This document shows positions 51,555-60,315 of a stretch of DNA of 64,000 nucleotides, in pieces. A model generated the notes under the pieces. That model did not search any database. It was not told the origin of the DNA and saw only the letters and a program-made list of their open reading frames with translations. The first letter of the stretch is position 1, and every line of letters starts with the position of its first letter. The translations under genes and the position numbers were made by a program. Origin of the DNA: Flavobacteriales bacterium (GTDB taxonomy: Bacteria > Bacteroidota > Bacteroidia > Flavobacteriales > UBA7430); the NCBI GenBank assembly GCA_002692065.1, contig NZJX01000019.1, positions 1 through 64,000 on the forward strand. The letters are read 5' to 3'.

Positions 51555-54500
51555 TTAATAAGAAAAACTATTTGATAAATATAATAATACAGATTCTTGA
51601 TTTGTTTTTAATTGATATCCTTTGGAAGGAGTAAGGTCACCTATTCCATTAAAATTAAACTCGGGAAGATATGCAGAGCCAGAATAATCTTTAACGATAA
51701 TTAATGCATTATTATCTACTAATTCATTCATTACTAGATCTACAGGTGAGGGAGAAATTCTTAAATATCCAATTATATTCCAACCTTGATTCAATGAAAT
51801 AGGGTTGTTTTCAGGCACTAAATATTCACCATCAATCATAATTGTTAATGAACTATTTAATTTAATTTGATATCCACTACCAATATTAATATTTCCTATA
51901 CCATTGAAATTGAATTCAGGTAAATATGCATTACCTTCATAATCTTTAATTATAACTAAATTTTCTACAAAATCTGAAAATATGAAATCTAAACTAGTAT
52001 TAGAAGGATTCATGTAAGTAGAAAACATTGACCATCCTGCTGGAAAATTGATCTCTTGATTTACAGGAAAAATATTATCTGAAATAAAATCACTTATAAA
52101 TGTTATACCATTGGAAGTATAATATTCAGGACCAGATGTATAAATAGGGTTAACAATATATTCATTGCATAAAGAAGGATCCCAGACTAAAAAATTAAAT
52201 TCTTGACCATAAATTAATCCCTCAATTTCATCTGTTGAAGAATCATCTCCCATTACTGCTATCTGAATAGTTCCATCCTCAATTAATGAATATCCAGCGC
52301 ATTGATTTTCTCCATAATTATCAGTGTAAAATACACCAATTGAAGATCCTTCAGAAAAAGAATTTTCATTGTCACTTATAATTGAACCTTGAATAAATAT
52401 TGAATGATTTTGATCTGTTACAACTATATTCCAGGGAAAGTCACAATCATAATTACAAGAATCATTGTCAATATCAGCAAGTGGATTATAATTATTTGAA
52501 CTTGAATCTGTACAACCTAATATTGGACATCCAATTGTACTTGGATAAAGAGAACAATAGTCTTCATATGACATACATTCGGAACAAGCAAGACATGATG
52601 CAGTAATTGCAGCACAACATACTTGAGGACAATAATTACATGTTCCATTGTCAAAATTTGCATCAATATTAAAATTAATAGCTAAAGAATCTGTACAACC
52701 AAATATAGAGTCTACAGAATTTGCACAAAATTGAACCAAAAGATCCTCATTTTGTAGAGTAAAACCGTAATAAGAATCATTATTATTTTGAATAAAGTCA
52801 CAGTTTGAGTTCATTAGGGGTTGAATTAAAAATGAAGAATTTTCAGGGTCTGAATTAAATGTGTTAATGTTATTTACACATTGTATAAAATACTCATAAG
52901 ACCCATTCTCTAATTCAATTGAAAAATTGTTTGCAAAAGTAACTCCCCATCCTGAAAAATTATTAAAATCACCTGATATGTTAATTAAACCATTACAATT
53001 GATATCAGATACATCAAAAGTTACTTCATTTAATGATGAAGGTGGTATCATTTGCGAATAAGTTGTATAAGCCAATCTTGGATTTCTGTGAATATCAACA
53101 ATTCCAAACCATTCTTCACTAACAAATTCATCAAGAAAACCACCAGTAGACCAAGATGATAGTTCATCATGAATTGCCCAATCACCTCCATTATGTTTCC
53201 ACCATTCGTCATTCCATTCAAATACCATACCTCCAGTGCAATTTGAAAAACCACTTTCATTAATTGATGCATTATTATAAATTTCGTTAGTTAGGCTTTC
53301 AACAATTAATGATTGATATTCTTCATTAACTGAATCTCCTACTGTATGGAATGCATCAATTCCATATTCAGATAAATAAAATGGTTTGTTTGTTGAGTTA
53401 TTCCACTGTTCAAATAAACTTAAAAATGATTCTCCAACATATAAATTTAATCCATAGATATCAACATTATTTAATGTATTAAAGGTATTTTCGTCAGGAA
53501 TCCAACCACCCCATGTGGTCGATATTAGTCTTGTAGAATCATTATATTTAAGTTGAGATGTAAGATAATCTACTACACTTAGAGCTTCAGAAAAATTGGA
53601 AAAAATAGATGAGGAAAGATTAGTAAGATTCCACTCATTTCCAACTTCCCATCCAATAATTGCAGGATGTTGTTTTAACTCACATAATCTATCAAATGTA
53701 TTTTCAAGAGGTTCATCATAACCGAAATAAATAACAGAAATTACATAAATACCATGATTATAAAGAACATCTAAAGCGTATTCGTCAACAACTCCATATG
53801 TTCTTACGATATTTATTCCAGCAGCTTGCATTAAAGGTGCATCTTGATCAACAAATTGGGAAAAATAAGAAGGATTTCCGTTATCTAACCCAGGACCACC
53901 TCCTATAGGAGTTGGTGACCAGCAAACACCTTTCATGTGAAAAGCTTCATTTCCAATTATTATTTTATTATTTTCAATTCTAACTGATTCTTCCCTACCT
54001 GGTGAACTAAAACAACTTGATTGTAAAAGATTTTCAAATGAACAAGAGCCATCATTAAGTACTGCCAAAGGATTATAATTTGAAGCATATGAATTTGTAC
54101 ATCCAGATAGGACTGATTCAGAATTACAAAATTCTACTTCTATATTATTATTTGATACTGAAAATCCAAAATTACCAAAGTTATCATTTGGATTAAAATC
54201 ACAAGTAGAAAGAACTTCAGAATTAATAACAGTTGAATTGTTCCAAACATTATTCCAGAAATTTGGAATACTGGTATCAATACATAAATACACAAATTGA
54301 TAGTCGCCAGGTTGCAAATTAATTAAATAATTATTATCAGGGTGGGCACCCCATCCACTCCAGTTATCAAATTCTCCTGAAATATTAATTTGCCCTTCAC
54401 ATTCAATATCATCTACTAAAAAGTTAACTGAATATAATTCATCAATACCAAGAATACAATTACTGGGATTTAATACAATATTATTATTAACTATAAAACC

Positions 54501-54833
54501 AAAATTGGTAAAACTATCATCAGGATTAAAATCACATGATGATCCTTGCTCTGGTTCATAAATAATTGAATTACTCCAAGGATCATTAAACCAATTAGAG
54601 TTAGAAGTATTAATACACAAAACTTGATATTCATAACTACCACTATTTAGTTCAATAGTATGATTATTATTAGGATTAGCTCCCCATCCGCTCCAATTAT
54701 CAAATGAGCCTGTAATATTAATTTGGCCGTTACAATCAATATCATCCACTAAAAATTCAACCTGAAAAACTTCATTATTATTTTGACTAAATAAGAAATT
54801 ATTTATAAAAAAAAGAAATAAAATTATTCTCAT
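51555..54833 (-). CDS. Large secreted modular GH-A hydrolase with three beta-sandwich modules
   Basis: The 1092-residue exported protein has a signal peptide ending 'NNFLFSQ'. Two related CBM48-like modules come first (about 27-125 and 132-235, 'VEFLVDDIDCNGQINITGSF', 'FDNWSGWGA'). A cysteine-bearing 'GCTNSYASNYNPLAVLNDGS' repeat follows, then a GH-A barrel with 'MKGVCWSPTPIGGGPGLDNG', acid/base Glu in 'IGWEVGNEWNLT' and nucleophile Glu in 'PFYLSEYGIDAFH'. A third CBM-like copy follows, then more Cys-rich GCTD repeats. The C-terminus has two copies of a 'GYQ...' module and no standard T9SS tail. The hydrolase family is uncertain (GH2, GH5 or GH17-like). It probably acts on the same glucan outside the cell. 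Confidence 0.8.
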   Translation of the reverse strand: MRIILFLFFINNFLFSQNNNEVFQVEFLVDDIDCNGQINITGSFDNWSGWGANPNNNHTIELNSGSYEYQVLCINTSNSNWFNDPWSNSIIYEPEQGSSCDFNPDDSFTNFGFIVNNNIVLNPSNCILGIDELYSVNFLVDDIECEGQINISGEFDNWSGWGAHPDNNYLINLQPGDYQFVYLCIDTSIPNFWNNVWNNSTVINSEVLSTCDFNPNDNFGNFGFSVSNNNIEVEFCNSESVLSGCTNSYASNYNPLAVLNDGSCSFENLLQSSCFSSPGREESVRIENNKIIIGNEAFHMKGVCWSPTPIGGGPGLDNGNPSYFSQFVDQDAPLMQAAGINIVRTYGVVDEYALDVLYNHGIYVISVIYFGYDEPLENTFDRLCELKQHPAIIGWEVGNEWNLTNLSSSIFSNFSEALSVVDYLTSQLKYNDSTRLISTTWGGWIPDENTFNTLNNVDIYGLNLYVGESFLSLFEQWNNSTNKPFYLSEYGIDAFHTVGDSVNEEYQSLIVESLTNEIYNNASINESGFSNCTGGMVFEWNDEWWKHNGGDWAIHDELSSWSTGGFLDEFVSEEWFGIVDIHRNPRLAYTTYSQMIPPSSLNEVTFDVSDINCNGLINISGDFNNFSGWGVTFANNFSIELENGSYEYFIQCVNNINTFNSDPENSSFLIQPLMNSNCDFIQNNNDSYYGFTLQNEDLLVQFCANSVDSIFGCTDSLAINFNIDANFDNGTCNYCPQVCCAAITASCLACSECMSYEDYCSLYPSTIGCPILGCTDSSSNNYNPLADIDNDSCNYDCDFPWNIVVTDQNHSIFIQGSIISDNENSFSEGSSIGVFYTDNYGENQCAGYSLIEDGTIQIAVMGDDSSTDEIEGLIYGQEFNFLVWDPSLCNEYIVNPIYTSGPEYYTSNGITFISDFISDNIFPVNQEINFPAGWSMFSTYMNPSNTSLDFIFSDFVENLVIIKDYEGNAYLPEFNFNGIGNINIGSGYQIKLNSSLTIMIDGEYLVPENNPISLNQGWNIIGYLRISPSPVDLVMNELVDNNALIIVKDYSGSAYLPEFNFNGIGDLTPSKGYQLKTNQESVLLYLSNSFSY
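51640..51960 (-). repeat. Duplicated C-terminal module in the large hydrolase
   Basis: Two stretches, about 51640-51710 and 51894-51960, encode nearly the same phrase: 'KDYSGSAYLPEFNFNGIGD' and 'KDYEGNAYLPEFNFNGIGN'. Each is preceded by a 'GW' segment ('PAGWSMFSTY', 'NQGWNIIGYL') and followed by 'GYQLK' or 'GYQIK'. The DNA has diverged at synonymous positions, so the duplication is old. The paired module replaces the usual T9SS sorting domain at this position. Confidence 0.85.
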
Positions 54834-54878: not shown

Positions 54879-55580
54879 CTAATTATAAAACATCATTATA
54901 ATCATTAAGATCATAATAATATTTTCAAAAATAGTAACTTTTGACATAGGTAAATCAAAAAAAGATCCCATACATGCACATTTAATTTTTTCATTTTTCA
55001 AAACACTATTTAATACACCAATAGAGGATGCAAACAAAAAAATTAATGCAAACAAATTTCTCTCAAATTCAATAAAATTGTATAAAAATAAAATCCCTAA
55101 TAAAAATTCTATAAATGGATAAATATATCCCCAAACATATATTTTTTTTGATATTATATCGTACTTATTAAACATTTTACTGAAAGACTTTAAATCATAT
55201 ATTTTAAGGAGAGAAAATAAAATAAAAAAAAATGAGATGAATTCGCGGATAAAAATTTTGGATTTGAAACTTTCAAATCTTATTTGAAATATTAAAGTCA
55301 AAAAAAATATTAAGGTAAATAAAATTATTAGAGGTTTATATATTCCAATTAGATTGAATATTTTTTGATATTTTTTTTGTTTCAATAATTTATAATTACC
55401 TATATCGATAAGATAATTGTTTAAAAAATCTAAATCTATATCATTATCGTGATAAATATGAATCTCGGATTTATTAAATAATTTAACTTTAGATATATTA
55501 TTTAAATCTAAAAGTTCACTAGTTATTTTTTCTACGCAGCTAGAACAAGAAACTCCTAAGATATTATATTTAGATATCAT
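54879..55580 (-). CDS. HMA domain plus MauE-like membrane protein
   Basis: The 233-residue protein starts with a heavy-metal-associated domain ('LGVSCSSCVEKITSELL', CxxC motif at about residues 11-14). A MauE/DoxX-like region with about five membrane helices follows. The C-terminal 'IKCACMGSFFDLPMSKVTIFE' carries two more Cys and is the conserved signature of this flavobacterial fusion. Such proteins are associated with copper or other soft-metal handling. It lies 28 bases after the cupredoxin gene on the same strand, which supports a copper-delivery role. The mechanism is unproven. Confidence 0.82.
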   Translation of the reverse strand: MISKYNILGVSCSSCVEKITSELLDLNNISKVKLFNKSEIHIYHDNDIDLDFLNNYLIDIGNYKLLKQKKYQKIFNLIGIYKPLIILFTLIFFLTLIFQIRFESFKSKIFIREFISFFFILFSLLKIYDLKSFSKMFNKYDIISKKIYVWGYIYPFIEFLLGILFLYNFIEFERNLFALIFLFASSIGVLNSVLKNEKIKCACMGSFFDLPMSKVTIFENIIMILMIIMMFYN

Positions 55581-55608
55581 TAAAATTCAATTCAAAAAAC
55601 ATTAATTA

Positions 55609-56754
55609 CTATTTTCTGGTAATTTTTTCAACTGTTCCATCATTATAAATATATATTTTAATTGGAACATTTGAATCTTCACTAACTATTCTTCCTAATG
55701 GATCAATTATTTTAACTAAAATTCTTTTTGATGTTTTTTGTAAATTATTAATTTCAAGATTACAATCATCTCCATCATAATTATTATTTACACAGTTAAG
55801 GTTAATTAAATTGAATCCATCAAGATTAGAATAATCATAGCAATAATTATCTGCTTTTGAATTGAAAACTTGACAGGTAACATTATTTTGAGGATTATAC
55901 ATATATCTATTTTCATCACAATCACCATCTCCAATCCATCCTGAAGGAGCACAATATCCATTGCAATCTTCAACAAGATTAACATTACCCTCAGAAGGGT
56001 TATTATTAATAAATATTGATAAACTATAATCCTCACAAGAACAATTTTCATAATAACAAGAACCATCATCAGAACCAGCTAAAGGATTGTAATTACAAGC
56101 TAATCCGTCAGTGCATCCAGGAAGGTCACAGTCACCATTATCAAAATTACTTGATATACAAAATAAATCAACAGTGTTAAATCCATCTAAATTTTCTAAA
56201 TCATTACAATAATTTTGACCAAAAGAATTATTTAATTGACAGTATGTATCAGTATTAGGATTATACATATAATCATTATTGTCGCAAAATCCATCTCCAA
56301 GCCACCAATTTGGTACACATGCACCATTACAATCATATATTAATGTTTGTGTGTTATCAGGAAATAAATCACTACATGATTGGGTTATAATAACTGAATC
56401 TTGAACTGTAACACTTCCAATCATACCAGAAGCTGCATGACCATATATAGAACAATCGTAATTAAAATTTCCAATTAAATTGAAAATAACAGAACCAATG
56501 GTATCATTATTGGTTGAGGTTAAAGACTGAGAGGAAATTTCAACCGGATTATTAAAAGATAATCCAGTCATGGTATTTATATTGAAATTAACATCATGAT
56601 ATCCACCGTCATTTAACCAAGTAACAGTATCTCCAGGGTTAATTGTTAATGAGGGTGGAGAGAAATACATCATACCTGCGTTAATAAAATAGTTAGTCTG
56701 CGCATTTATAACAGAGAAAGACATCGAGAAAATTATACATATTATTTTTTTCAT
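55609..56754 (-). CDS. Secreted cupredoxin with LNR-like repeats and T9SS tail
   Basis: The 381-residue protein has a signal peptide ending 'SVINAQ' and a plastocyanin-like domain (about 20-118). All four type 1 copper ligands can be placed: His53 in 'GGYHDVNF', and Cys101, His106 and Met111 in 'DCSIYGHAASGMIG'. Two Cys-rich repeats follow, each of the form 'DCNGACVPNWWLGDGFCDNN' with a later 'FDNGDCD', resembling Notch/LNR modules, plus a 'GCTDGLACNYNPLAGSDDGS' repeat. The tail 'IIDPLGRIVSED' to 'IYIYNDGTVEKITRK' is a known T9SS-type ending. It is probably a surface electron-transfer or copper-binding protein. The substrate partner is unknown. Confidence 0.85.
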   Translation of the reverse strand: MKKIICIIFSMSFSVINAQTNYFINAGMMYFSPPSLTINPGDTVTWLNDGGYHDVNFNINTMTGLSFNNPVEISSQSLTSTNNDTIGSVIFNLIGNFNYDCSIYGHAASGMIGSVTVQDSVIITQSCSDLFPDNTQTLIYDCNGACVPNWWLGDGFCDNNDYMYNPNTDTYCQLNNSFGQNYCNDLENLDGFNTVDLFCISSNFDNGDCDLPGCTDGLACNYNPLAGSDDGSCYYENCSCEDYSLSIFINNNPSEGNVNLVEDCNGYCAPSGWIGDGDCDENRYMYNPQNNVTCQVFNSKADNYCYDYSNLDGFNLINLNCVNNNYDGDDCNLEINNLQKTSKRILVKIIDPLGRIVSEDSNVPIKIYIYNDGTVEKITRK

Positions 56755-56804: not shown

Positions 56805-57737
56805 TTAATTACTTAAATGTAATATTTTTAAAGAATCAAAATCAAGGAACACATTTTCATTATTTTTTAATGGAACTTTATTGTAGAAATACCATATGTT
56901 TTGATTAAATAACGAAGTTATTAAATATTCTTTTCCATAAAAAACTGAATTTAAAATTGAAACTTTATAGTCAGATTTTGAAACTTTAACTATATCTTCT
57001 GGTCTTATATATTTGTTTTTATCAATTTTATTTAGACGTCCAGAAATTGAAGCAACATAAAAACTTTTAGGATTAAAATAAATATTTTTTGGAGAATCAA
57101 ATTGCTCGACTTGTCCATCTTTTAAAATTAAAATTTTATTGGAAATACTTAATGCGTCTGAAATATCGTGTGTGACAAGTATAGTTGTTAAATTTAAGTT
57201 TTTAATTATTAAATGAATATCATTAATTAATTTTAATTTAAAAAAATGATCTAAATTACTAAAGGGTTCATCTAATAAAAGGAGATTAGGTTCTCTAATC
57301 AAGGATGTAGCAATTGAGGCTCTTTGTAATTCACCACCTGATACTTGATGAGAAAATTTATTATCAATCTTGCTTAAGTTTGTAATCTTAATAATCTTCT
57401 CATAATTAGATAAATATTTTTTAGATAAGTTTAAAATTATATTGTCTTTAAGAGAGAGGTGCGGAAATATGGGTGAATTTTGGAAAACAAATCCAATATC
57501 TCTTTTATTAGGTTTAATAAAAGTTTTACTATCTGTTAAAATTTTATTATTTAATTTGATAAATCCCTTTTTAATACTTTGAAAACCTCCAATACATTTG
57601 AGTAAAGAAGTTTTTCCAGAACCGCTTTCACCAACCACAGAAATTATATCTCCTTTACTAGCTTTAAATGAAATAGCCTCTAAAATATTTTCAAAAGAAA
57701 TATTTTCAACAATTAAATAAGAATTATCTATCATCAC
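56805..57737 (-). CDS. fbpC: Fe(III) ABC transporter ATP-binding protein (FbpC-like)
   Basis: The 310-residue ATPase powers the permease encoded just upstream. Walker A is 'GESGSGKTSLLKC', the Q-loop region is 'DIGFVFQNSPIFPHL', the ABC signature is 'VSGGELQRASIATSL' and Walker B is 'LLLLDEPFSNLDHF', followed by 'TILVTHDISDAL'. A C-terminal TOBE-like domain of about 80 residues follows ('YIRPEDIVKVSKSDY'), as in the iron and sulfate/spermidine importers. It overlaps the permease gene by 14 bases. Confidence 0.92.
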   Translation of the reverse strand: MMIDNSYLIVENISFENILEAISFKASKGDIISVVGESGSGKTSLLKCIGGFQSIKKGFIKLNNKILTDSKTFIKPNKRDIGFVFQNSPIFPHLSLKDNIILNLSKKYLSNYEKIIKITNLSKIDNKFSHQVSGGELQRASIATSLIREPNLLLLDEPFSNLDHFFKLKLINDIHLIIKNLNLTTILVTHDISDALSISNKILILKDGQVEQFDSPKNIYFNPKSFYVASISGRLNKIDKNKYIRPEDIVKVSKSDYKVSILNSVFYGKEYLITSLFNQNIWYFYNKVPLKNNENVFLDFDSLKILHLSN

Positions 57738-59283
57738 TATAAAATTTTAAAAATACTAGCAAAAATGATGAAATAAAAACAATTAATAATGAATAAATTG
57801 ATGATTCACTCAACATCTCATCAGATGCTAATTCATAAGTAGAAGATGCTAAGGTATCAAAATTAAAAGGTCTTAAAATTAAAGTAATTGGTAATTCTTT
57901 TAAAATATCAATAAATACAAGAATAAAAGCAATAAAAACTGACTTATTAGTTAGTGGAAAATATACTTTTTTCAGAGAAGAAAATTTTGATAACTTAAGT
58001 AAATTTGATAAGTCTTTATAATCATCTGGTACTTTATCATAACTTGATTTAATAGGAGATTTTGCAACAGCTAAAAATCTAAAACAATAAGCATAGGTTA
58101 ATACTGAAAATGATGTTAAAATAGAAAATTTAGAAATTAAAATCATAAATGATAAACCAATAACAGCTCCAGGAATTGTATATCCAATAGACATTATTTT
58201 TTCTATAAACTTAGATAAATAAATACTATTAAATTTATTAAGAAAAATAAATATTAATGTAATAAAAACACAAATAGTAGCTGAAATAGACGAAAGGCAT
58301 ATTGAATTTAAGGTGACAAAAAATAAATGATTTAGTTCGGTTATAGTATTAATAGCATTAAAAATTAAATATGATACAGGTAAAATGAATCCAAAAAAAA
58401 TTGGAATTGAAATAAATAGAAATGGGAAAAATTTACTATTTAATTTTTTAAGTCTATTATGTGAATTATTTTGGCTAAAAAAATAAAATCTTGATTTATT
58501 ATATATTCTGTTTTCTATCAATGATAAAAATAAAATAATAGTTAATAAAAATAAAGATAATATTACAGCAGATTTTTCACTTCCCATGGAAAACCATAAT
58601 CTAAATATTCCTGATGTAAAAGTATTAACTCCAAAATATACAACTGCACCATAATCATTCAAAACTTCCATAATAATCAAAAATGAACCTAATAAAAGTG
58701 CAGGTCTTGAAAGTGGTAATAATAATTTATAAAAAAAATAAAAATCAGACATTCCAAGATTTTCTGCTTTATTGCTATAAGTACTCCCAATCATACTAAA
58801 AGCTATTCTAGTTGAAGCATATAAATATGGATATAATGATAATGCTAAAATAATTCCTAACACTTCGATTTGTAGATAATCATTATTTATAATATAACTG
58901 AAATCTTTGAGATACTTCCTAAAAAAAAATTGTATTGGACCAGTAAAACTTAAAATATCACCATATGTATAAGCCATAATATATGTTGGAATAGATAAAG
59001 GTAAGTATAATAAAATATCTAATAAATTTCTAAATTTAAACTTATGTGTACTTATTATCCATGAAGGTATAATTGAAAAAAAAATTGAAAAAAATAATGT
59101 TAGAAAAATTAAATAAATAGTATTGAAAGAATAATCATATAAATGAATTTCTAATAAGTATGATAGCTCTTTAGAAATGAAATCAATAGAGTTAAATAAT
59201 AAAAATATTATTGGGGATAATAAAAATATTAAAATCAATAGAGAAATTATAATATGTAAAATATTTAACCTTAAAAATTTCAT
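57724..59283 (-). CDS. fbpB: Fe(III) ABC transporter permease (FbpB-like)
   Basis: The 519-residue inner-membrane protein has about twelve helices arranged as two homologous BPD_transp_1 halves, the fused architecture of Fbp/Sfu/Hit permeases. The EAA loops are visible as 'NLGMSDFYFFYKLLLPLSRPALL' in the first half and 'LLKLSKFSSLKKVYFPLTNK' in the second. 'GPIQFFFRKYLKDF' and 'NDYGAVVYFGVNTF' are typical of iron permeases. It lies between fbpA (3-base gap) and fbpC (14-base overlap), so the order fits a single operon. Confidence 0.92.
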   Translation of the reverse strand: MKFLRLNILHIIISLLILIFLLSPIIFLLFNSIDFISKELSYLLEIHLYDYSFNTIYLIFLTLFFSIFFSIIPSWIISTHKFKFRNLLDILLYLPLSIPTYIMAYTYGDILSFTGPIQFFFRKYLKDFSYIINNDYLQIEVLGIILALSLYPYLYASTRIAFSMIGSTYSNKAENLGMSDFYFFYKLLLPLSRPALLLGSFLIIMEVLNDYGAVVYFGVNTFTSGIFRLWFSMGSEKSAVILSLFLLTIILFLSLIENRIYNKSRFYFFSQNNSHNRLKKLNSKFFPFLFISIPIFFGFILPVSYLIFNAINTITELNHLFFVTLNSICLSSISATICVFITLIFIFLNKFNSIYLSKFIEKIMSIGYTIPGAVIGLSFMILISKFSILTSFSVLTYAYCFRFLAVAKSPIKSSYDKVPDDYKDLSNLLKLSKFSSLKKVYFPLTNKSVFIAFILVFIDILKELPITLILRPFNFDTLASSTYELASDEMLSESSIYSLLIVFISSFLLVFLKFYSDDR

Positions 59284-59286
59284 GAG

Positions 59287-60315
59287 TTATTTCCATCCTG
59301 ATTTATCAAAAATTTTAATAGCTTCATCTCTATAAACTCCAAGTAAATTTAGATCAATTGAATCAATTAAAAATGTCCCCCAATTTTGCATTAAATTATT
59401 AAATTGAATATCATTATTTACAGGAAATTCATAAGAGGAATTACAATATAATTTTTGGGCATCACCGCTAATTAAATAATTTAATAGTTTTAGTGCATTA
59501 TCATAATTTGGTGAATTTTTAAGTATTCCTGCCCCAGATATATTTACATGAACTCCACTATCATTATTTTGATTTGGAAAAAAAATATCAACAGATTTTC
59601 CAGCATTAACTTCTTCTTCTTTATCAGAATTTAATAATAATCCTAGATAATAAGTATTTATTAAAGCTAAGTCTCCTTCACCTGCATAAATTGCTTTAAC
59701 TTGGTCTCTATCGTTTCCTTTTGGAGACCTTGCGAAGTTATTAACCACTCCTCTAGCCCACAATAAAGAATTCTCAATCCCTTTATGAGCAATCACCGAT
59801 GATAGAAAAGCTTGATTATAACTATTTGAGGATGACCTAATTAATAATCTATTTTTCCATTTTGATGAGCTTAAATCTTCATATGTTGATAATTCATCTC
59901 GTGATACTCTATCTTTACTAAAAACTATAACTCTTGCTCTGTAAGTTAATGGAATCCAACAAGAATCTTTATCTAGTAAAACATCCTTAAGTTTAAAATT
60001 AAAATCTGAATAGTTTAATTTTTTTAGTAAATTTTGTTTTTTTGCTTTATATAGTTTGCCGGCATCAACAGAAATAAAAATATCAGCTGGACAATTTTTT
60101 GCTTCATTTTTAATTCTTTCGATTAGTTCATCTGCATTTGATTTCACAACATTAACTTTAATTCCTGTTAAATTTGTAAAATTTTCAAATTGTTTTTTGT
60201 CAACTGAATAATGTCTTTGAGTATATAAATTTACTTCTTGAACCTTTTTTTTTGAATTTATGCAAGAAGAAAATAATATTGATATAAAAATTATATGATA
60301 ATAAAATATTTTCAT
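59287..60315 (-). CDS. fbpA: Fe(III)-binding lipoprotein (FbpA-like)
   Basis: The 342-residue solute-binding protein has a lipobox 'FISILFSSCINS'. It is thus probably anchored, unlike the soluble FbpA of Neisseria. The family opening is 'EVNLYTQRHYSVDKKQFENF', whose Tyr is a known iron ligand position. 'PADIFISVDAGKLYKAKKQN', 'PKGNDRDQVKAIYAGEGDLA' and the Tyr pair in 'LINTYYLGLLL' follow. The lipid anchor and the lone permease operon point to ferric iron uptake across the inner membrane without a siderophore gene nearby. Confidence 0.92.
   Translation of the reverse strand: MKIFYYHIIFISILFSSCINSKKKVQEVNLYTQRHYSVDKKQFENFTNLTGIKVNVVKSNADELIERIKNEAKNCPADIFISVDAGKLYKAKKQNLLKKLNYSDFNFKLKDVLLDKDSCWIPLTYRARVIVFSKDRVSRDELSTYEDLSSSKWKNRLLIRSSSNSYNQAFLSSVIAHKGIENSLLWARGVVNNFARSPKGNDRDQVKAIYAGEGDLALINTYYLGLLLNSDKEEEVNAGKSVDIFFPNQNNDSGVHVNISGAGILKNSPNYDNALKLLNYLISGDAQKLYCNSSYEFPVNNDIQFNNLMQNWGTFLIDSIDLNLLGVYRDEAIKIFDKSGWK

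Follow-up and report, generated by a model that had tools for sequence, protein, structure and literature searches.

A plastocyanin-type cupredoxin and a divergent HMA-MauE membrane protein as gene neighbours in a Flavobacteriales genome: probably two separate copper-related families

Among described systems, the closest to the first of the two proteins considered here is the plastocyanin/azurin family (PF00127; e.g. cyanobacterial plastocyanin, 4r0o/1baw), which it matches in fold, in domain length and in its four type-1 ligands; however, in the present case the domain is the N-terminal module of a protein that is probably exported to the surface and that also has Cys-rich repeats and a sorting-type tail, and there is no photosynthetic partner. 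It belongs to the same subfamily as the cupredoxin-fasciclin-tail and cupredoxin-tail proteins of marine Bacteroidota (e.g. at loci L097, L101 and L013; up to 56% identity), which carry a similar tail, but whereas the middle of those proteins consists of FAS1 domains or of nothing at all, in this protein it is occupied by LNR-like repeats. The Cys spacing in these repeats resembles the GxGxCD...DxGDC of the Lin-12/Notch repeat (LNR), although they have a long insert between Cys residues. For the second protein, the MauE of methylamine utilisation (PF07291) shares the membrane domain (profile positions 7–127 of 128), but here there is an N-terminal HMA domain in addition, and no methylamine dehydrogenase genes were seen nearby. 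Homology over the full length, together with a common CxxC, CxC, E158, E219, M223 and M226, links it to the HMA-MauE proteins found in copper clusters of Bacteroidota (e.g. Flavobacterium terrae, L153, and Pedobacter, L229), from which it differs in being very divergent, in having Ile rather than Met at positions 111 and 115, and in lacking the usual AraC, multicopper oxidase (MCO) and RND neighbours; it is a divergent member of this copper-associated membrane family.

Both open reading frames lie on the minus strand of the window (the whole 64,000-nucleotide stretch of DNA that was analysed), with the HMA-MauE gene 28 bp downstream of the cupredoxin gene (Table 1). The coordinates, order and gap of this gene pair were correctly given in the earlier note, but the gap is not unusually close for this DNA, as 32 of the 44 co-directional gaps in the window (73%) are of 28 bp or less, with a median of 1.5 bp. 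The reading that we consider probable is that these are two copper-related genes from separate, widespread families that lie next to one another in a tightly packed gene string.

Table 1 Features of the locus, in window positions, with the basis of each assignment.
Feature	Position	Strand	Basis or remark
HMA-MauE fusion membrane protein, 233 aa	54879..55580	-	ORF, Pfam, alignment, predicted structure
Cupredoxin protein, probably secreted, 381 aa	55609..56754	-	ORF, Pfam, related structures, AlphaFold
Copper-bind (PF00127) domain, ligands H53, C101, H106, M111	56401..56685	-	Profile search of genome, ligand conservation, AlphaFold
Cys-rich repeat 1 (LNR-like skeleton, no Pfam LNR)	56128..56376	-	
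Cys-rich repeat 2	55762..55986	-	52% identical to repeat 1
C-terminal tail IIDPLGRIV...IYIYNDGTVEK, probably a T9SS sorting tail	55609..55761	-	Recurrence in genome; SprA present

Judged from its sequence, the 381-residue protein is a plastocyanin-type cupredoxin with a complete putative type-1 copper site, and to this extent the earlier note's claim of a cupredoxin with all four copper ligands was correct. Its Pfam score for Copper-bind is 37.3 bits (cut-off 21.2), the solved chains closest to it in sequence are plastocyanins (4r0o, E 2.6e-7), and a fold search with the predicted domain returned the plastocyanin fold (E 3.9e-7). Residues H53, C101, H106 and M111 make up the full four-ligand type-1 set and are kept in 25–27 of 27 related domains. 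Reading from the N- to the C-terminus, a signal-like start (MKKIICIIFSMSFSVINAQ) is followed by the plastocyanin-type domain (approximately residues 21–120), the Cys-rich repeats and finally the sorting-type tail. In the AlphaFold model the pLDDT is about 90 across most of the cupredoxin domain, while outside it the model is poor (below 50 for residues 123–342). Two more PF00127 proteins are encoded elsewhere in this genome (one of them a cupredoxin followed by fasciclin domains), giving the organism some three cupredoxin proteins in all; no plasmid relatives of the cupredoxin were found. As a separate observation, the combination of cupredoxin, fasciclin (FAS1) and tail is recurrent in small-genome marine Bacteroidota (e.g. 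L097:8560-10302; also L101, L015 and L016), where a single genome may contain as many as 8 PF00127 matches; a literature search returned nothing relevant on T9SS cupredoxin/fasciclin proteins.

Most of the 22 cysteines of the 381-residue protein fall within the repeats. There are two of these, which flank a GCTD...YNPLA..DDGSC unit and have the form GDGxCD...DxGDC (more fully, CNGxCxPxxWxGDGxCD...C...DxDxC). Comparable GDGxCD repeats are found in further exported proteins of this bacterial family, such as a protease of thermolysin type that carries a Por secretion tail. A fusion of the cupredoxin to LNR-like Cys repeats had been suggested; the two Cys-rich repeats are indeed there, but an assignment as LNR was rejected, as the Pfam Notch/LNR profile has no match to them at E 1 or even at E 10, nor when the repeat region was scanned by itself, and “LNR-like” is used here to describe the skeleton of the repeats only. 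The tail presents a similarly mixed picture. No library sorting-domain model (PF18962, TIGR04183) matches it, so that the T9SS tail of the earlier note is not one of a recognised type; however, this genome has matches to it in 15 or more further places, many of them in secreted proteins, and also encodes SprA (555 bits), and because of these two findings export of the protein by the T9SS seems likely.

The 233-residue protein fits its original description as a membrane protein with a CxxC metal domain. It has five predicted membrane-length helices, a CxC at residues 201–203 and an N-terminal HMA-fold domain with CxxC at 12–15, within the motif GVSCSSC, and it scores 54.2 bits against MauE (PF07291, Pfam cut-off 27). 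Although the score for HMA (PF00403) is below the Pfam cut-off (18.8 as against 24.8 bits), the predicted fold of this domain (pLDDT mostly about 90) matches the metal-binding domains of Ccc2a, ATP7A/B and CopZ (Foldseek, prob 1.00, E ~2e-3 to 4e-3), and the full-length homologues and the predicted fold point to its being of HMA type, i.e. a ferredoxin-like fold with CxxC. Residues invariant across 33 aligned HMA-MauE proteins include C12, C15, K126, E158, C201, C203, E219, M223 and M226, and the protein in the window retains all 19 of the invariant columns; at positions 111 and 115, by contrast, it has Ile where 32 of the 33 have Met. Lys and Arg are concentrated in loops 2 and 4, whereas loops 1 and 3 and the C-terminus contain few of them, from which we infer that the CxC loop lies on the same side of the membrane as the HMA domain, presumably the cytoplasmic one. 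The branch leading to this protein in the tree is extremely long (3.42, as against a median of 0.25), making its placement there unsure, and since it is fast-evolving and carries Ile at 111 and 115 its function may have shifted.

Relatives of HMA-MauE number at least 563 in bacterial genomes, the best 80 of these at least 563 being almost all from Bacteroidota, and they form what is apparently an undescribed Bacteroidota-wide, copper-associated family; a literature search found no description of it. Gene neighbourhoods were surveyed at 117 loci with flanks of up to 8 kb (some loci being shorter, and a few duplicates). Copper-type genes were present within five genes at 91 of these, which supports a copper role for HMA-MauE, while the locus in the window is among the other 26, where copper-cluster genes are not found alongside. 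The genes encountered nearby include multicopper oxidases (22 loci), CopA-type ATPases (18), CusA-type pumps of RND efflux (17 and 6), TonB receptors (13) and a periplasmic HMA protein (12); the gene immediately upstream codes at 55 loci for a small AraC-type regulator whose N-terminus bears a CxxC, and such a regulator is nearby at 65. The CxxC segment of these regulators, which are probably copper-sensing, reads KNMVCxRC (e.g. L158:7340-7903 and L078:7541-8140). Two of the families that adjoin HMA-MauE in several Flavobacteriales, namely a TonB-dependent receptor and a small exported HMA-domain protein, are also encoded in the present genome, where the second gene comes immediately after the first on another contig, apart from HMA-MauE (L232:6780-9351, i.e. 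G000:C7:186780-189351). If HMA-MauE does move or deliver copper, then with at least 563 loci it would be a common and apparently undescribed part of copper handling in Bacteroidota, and it is this family as a whole that provides the more interesting lead, the pairing itself saying little.

The pairing was looked for elsewhere and did not recur. None of the 11 other family genomes, including three with a completeness of 94% or more, contains HMA-MauE, yet PF00127 cupredoxin genes are present in 8 of them; likewise, a profile for the cupredoxin subfamily gave no convincing match near the other 116 HMA-MauE loci, the window alone matching, and the pair is adjacent at none of them. In a sample of 398 genomes at the level of the order, 46 had a full-length HMA-MauE (of 48 matches, two were set aside as no more than the HMA domains of long proteins), and a PF00127 gene occurs in 29 of these 46 as against 147 of the 352 without, a modest excess (Fisher p = 0.007, uncorrected for relatedness). 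A conserved two-gene copper module was rejected, given its failure to recur either in the family or at other HMA-MauE loci. Since each family is widespread, and only in this one of the surveyed genomes do the two stand side by side, their adjacency is probably that of chance neighbours rather than of a conserved working unit. They are probably co-transcribed, because the genes here are so closely packed; no minus-strand terminator-like site was found between the two, the Bacteroidota promoter pattern is no commoner than expected by chance, and the count of sigma-70-like sites, though above that in shuffles, is uninformative.

As to what the proteins might do, copper is plausible as the metal of both, in view of the type-1 site in the one and the occurrence of relatives of the other in copper/RND efflux clusters. 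The cupredoxin would be exported, most likely via the T9SS, placing a type-1 copper site at the cell surface; it would bind its copper after leaving the cytoplasm, and once at the surface would probably bind copper or pass on electrons. C12xxC15 is most likely where the HMA domain picks up cytoplasmic Cu+, which it would then hand on to C201xC203 at the cytoplasmic side of the five-helix membrane domain, from where the invariant E158, E219, M223 and M226 plausibly carry it outwards, past the conserved Glu and Met residues of the last helix. HMA-MauE may thus be a step of copper export or delivery in a genome where no P-type ATPase was detected: the E1-E2 ATPase model PF00122 has no match here (estimated completeness 92%) and is present in all 14 control genomes, and the organism possibly has no copper ATPase.

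It is possible that HMA-MauE hands copper directly to the cupredoxin in the periplasm, since the T9SS exports folded proteins from that compartment; what suggests this for the two proteins of the window is their adjacency, and while copper is a reasonable metal for each of them, the joint loading or use of copper at the surface that was proposed in the earlier note gains no support beyond that adjacency. Put more explicitly, HMA-MauE would be a dedicated loader that moves Cu+ across the inner membrane and loads its periplasmic client, which the T9SS then exports as a folded, copper-loaded protein. The shared strand and 28-bp gap, the metal motifs in both proteins and the failure to detect a P-type ATPase in the genome speak for such an arrangement; a partnership of this kind is also not absurd, given that secreted multicopper oxidases, themselves copper proteins of cupredoxin fold, lie near HMA-MauE at 22 of 117 loci, and the excess of plastocyanin-type genes in genomes with HMA-MauE (29/46 vs 147/352, p = 0.007, again uncorrected for relatedness) counts against mere chance neighbours. 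Nevertheless, we regard it as unlikely, since the two do not co-occur in the family or stand together at any of the 116 further loci, and the other cupredoxins of this genome and of its relatives do not have HMA-MauE alongside. Less likely again is the more far-reaching proposition that HMA-MauE proteins provide a hitherto undescribed passage for Cu+ through the inner membrane of Bacteroidota that needs no ATPase, and that in this organism, with no P-type ATPase detected, the neighbouring copy loads a T9SS-exported surface cupredoxin.

A role with some other soft metal (Zn, Cd or Hg), in a layout comparable to that of MerT-MerP fusions and with the cupredoxin irrelevant to it, would accord with the fact that HMA domains serve several metals and with the weak matches of the HMA part to MerTP and ZntA models, but among known folds Cu-ATPase and CopZ domains come closest, and at other loci multicopper oxidase, CusA-type pumps and CopA-type ATPase are among its best neighbours, making such a role improbable. 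Alternatively, HMA-MauE might be a thiol-redox or disulfide factor for its Cys-rich neighbour, as MauE is thought to be for methylamine dehydrogenase; there is a MauE domain, the CxC is invariant, and the neighbour does have its 22 cysteines, most of them in repeats. However, the predicted position of the CxC is cytoplasmic, the conserved HMA-MauE clusters include no thioredoxin- or MauD-like neighbour, and the relatives adjoin copper genes and not Cys-rich proteins, so that we think this very improbable indeed.

A role shared with the neighbouring iron importer and hydrolase had also been suggested, but neither of these is linked to either gene of the pair elsewhere. The iron-type ABC operon upstream (56805-60315; SBP-permease-ATPase) is kept in another genome of the family, G004, at 56, 51 and 47% identity, where it is followed by unrelated genes and where neither the cupredoxin nor HMA-MauE accompanies it, and a link with the importer was rejected for this reason. 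For the hydrolase downstream, the C-terminal half matches many exported proteins in all 12 genomes of the family; being so widespread it marks no partnership, and this link was likewise rejected. Finally, the protein encoded at 51555-54833 of the window ends in a module without a Pfam match (GWSMF...VIIKDYEGNAYLPEFNFNGIGN...GYQIKL, residues ~926–1092) that recurs many times in each of the 12 family genomes and may represent a distinct surface or sorting domain.
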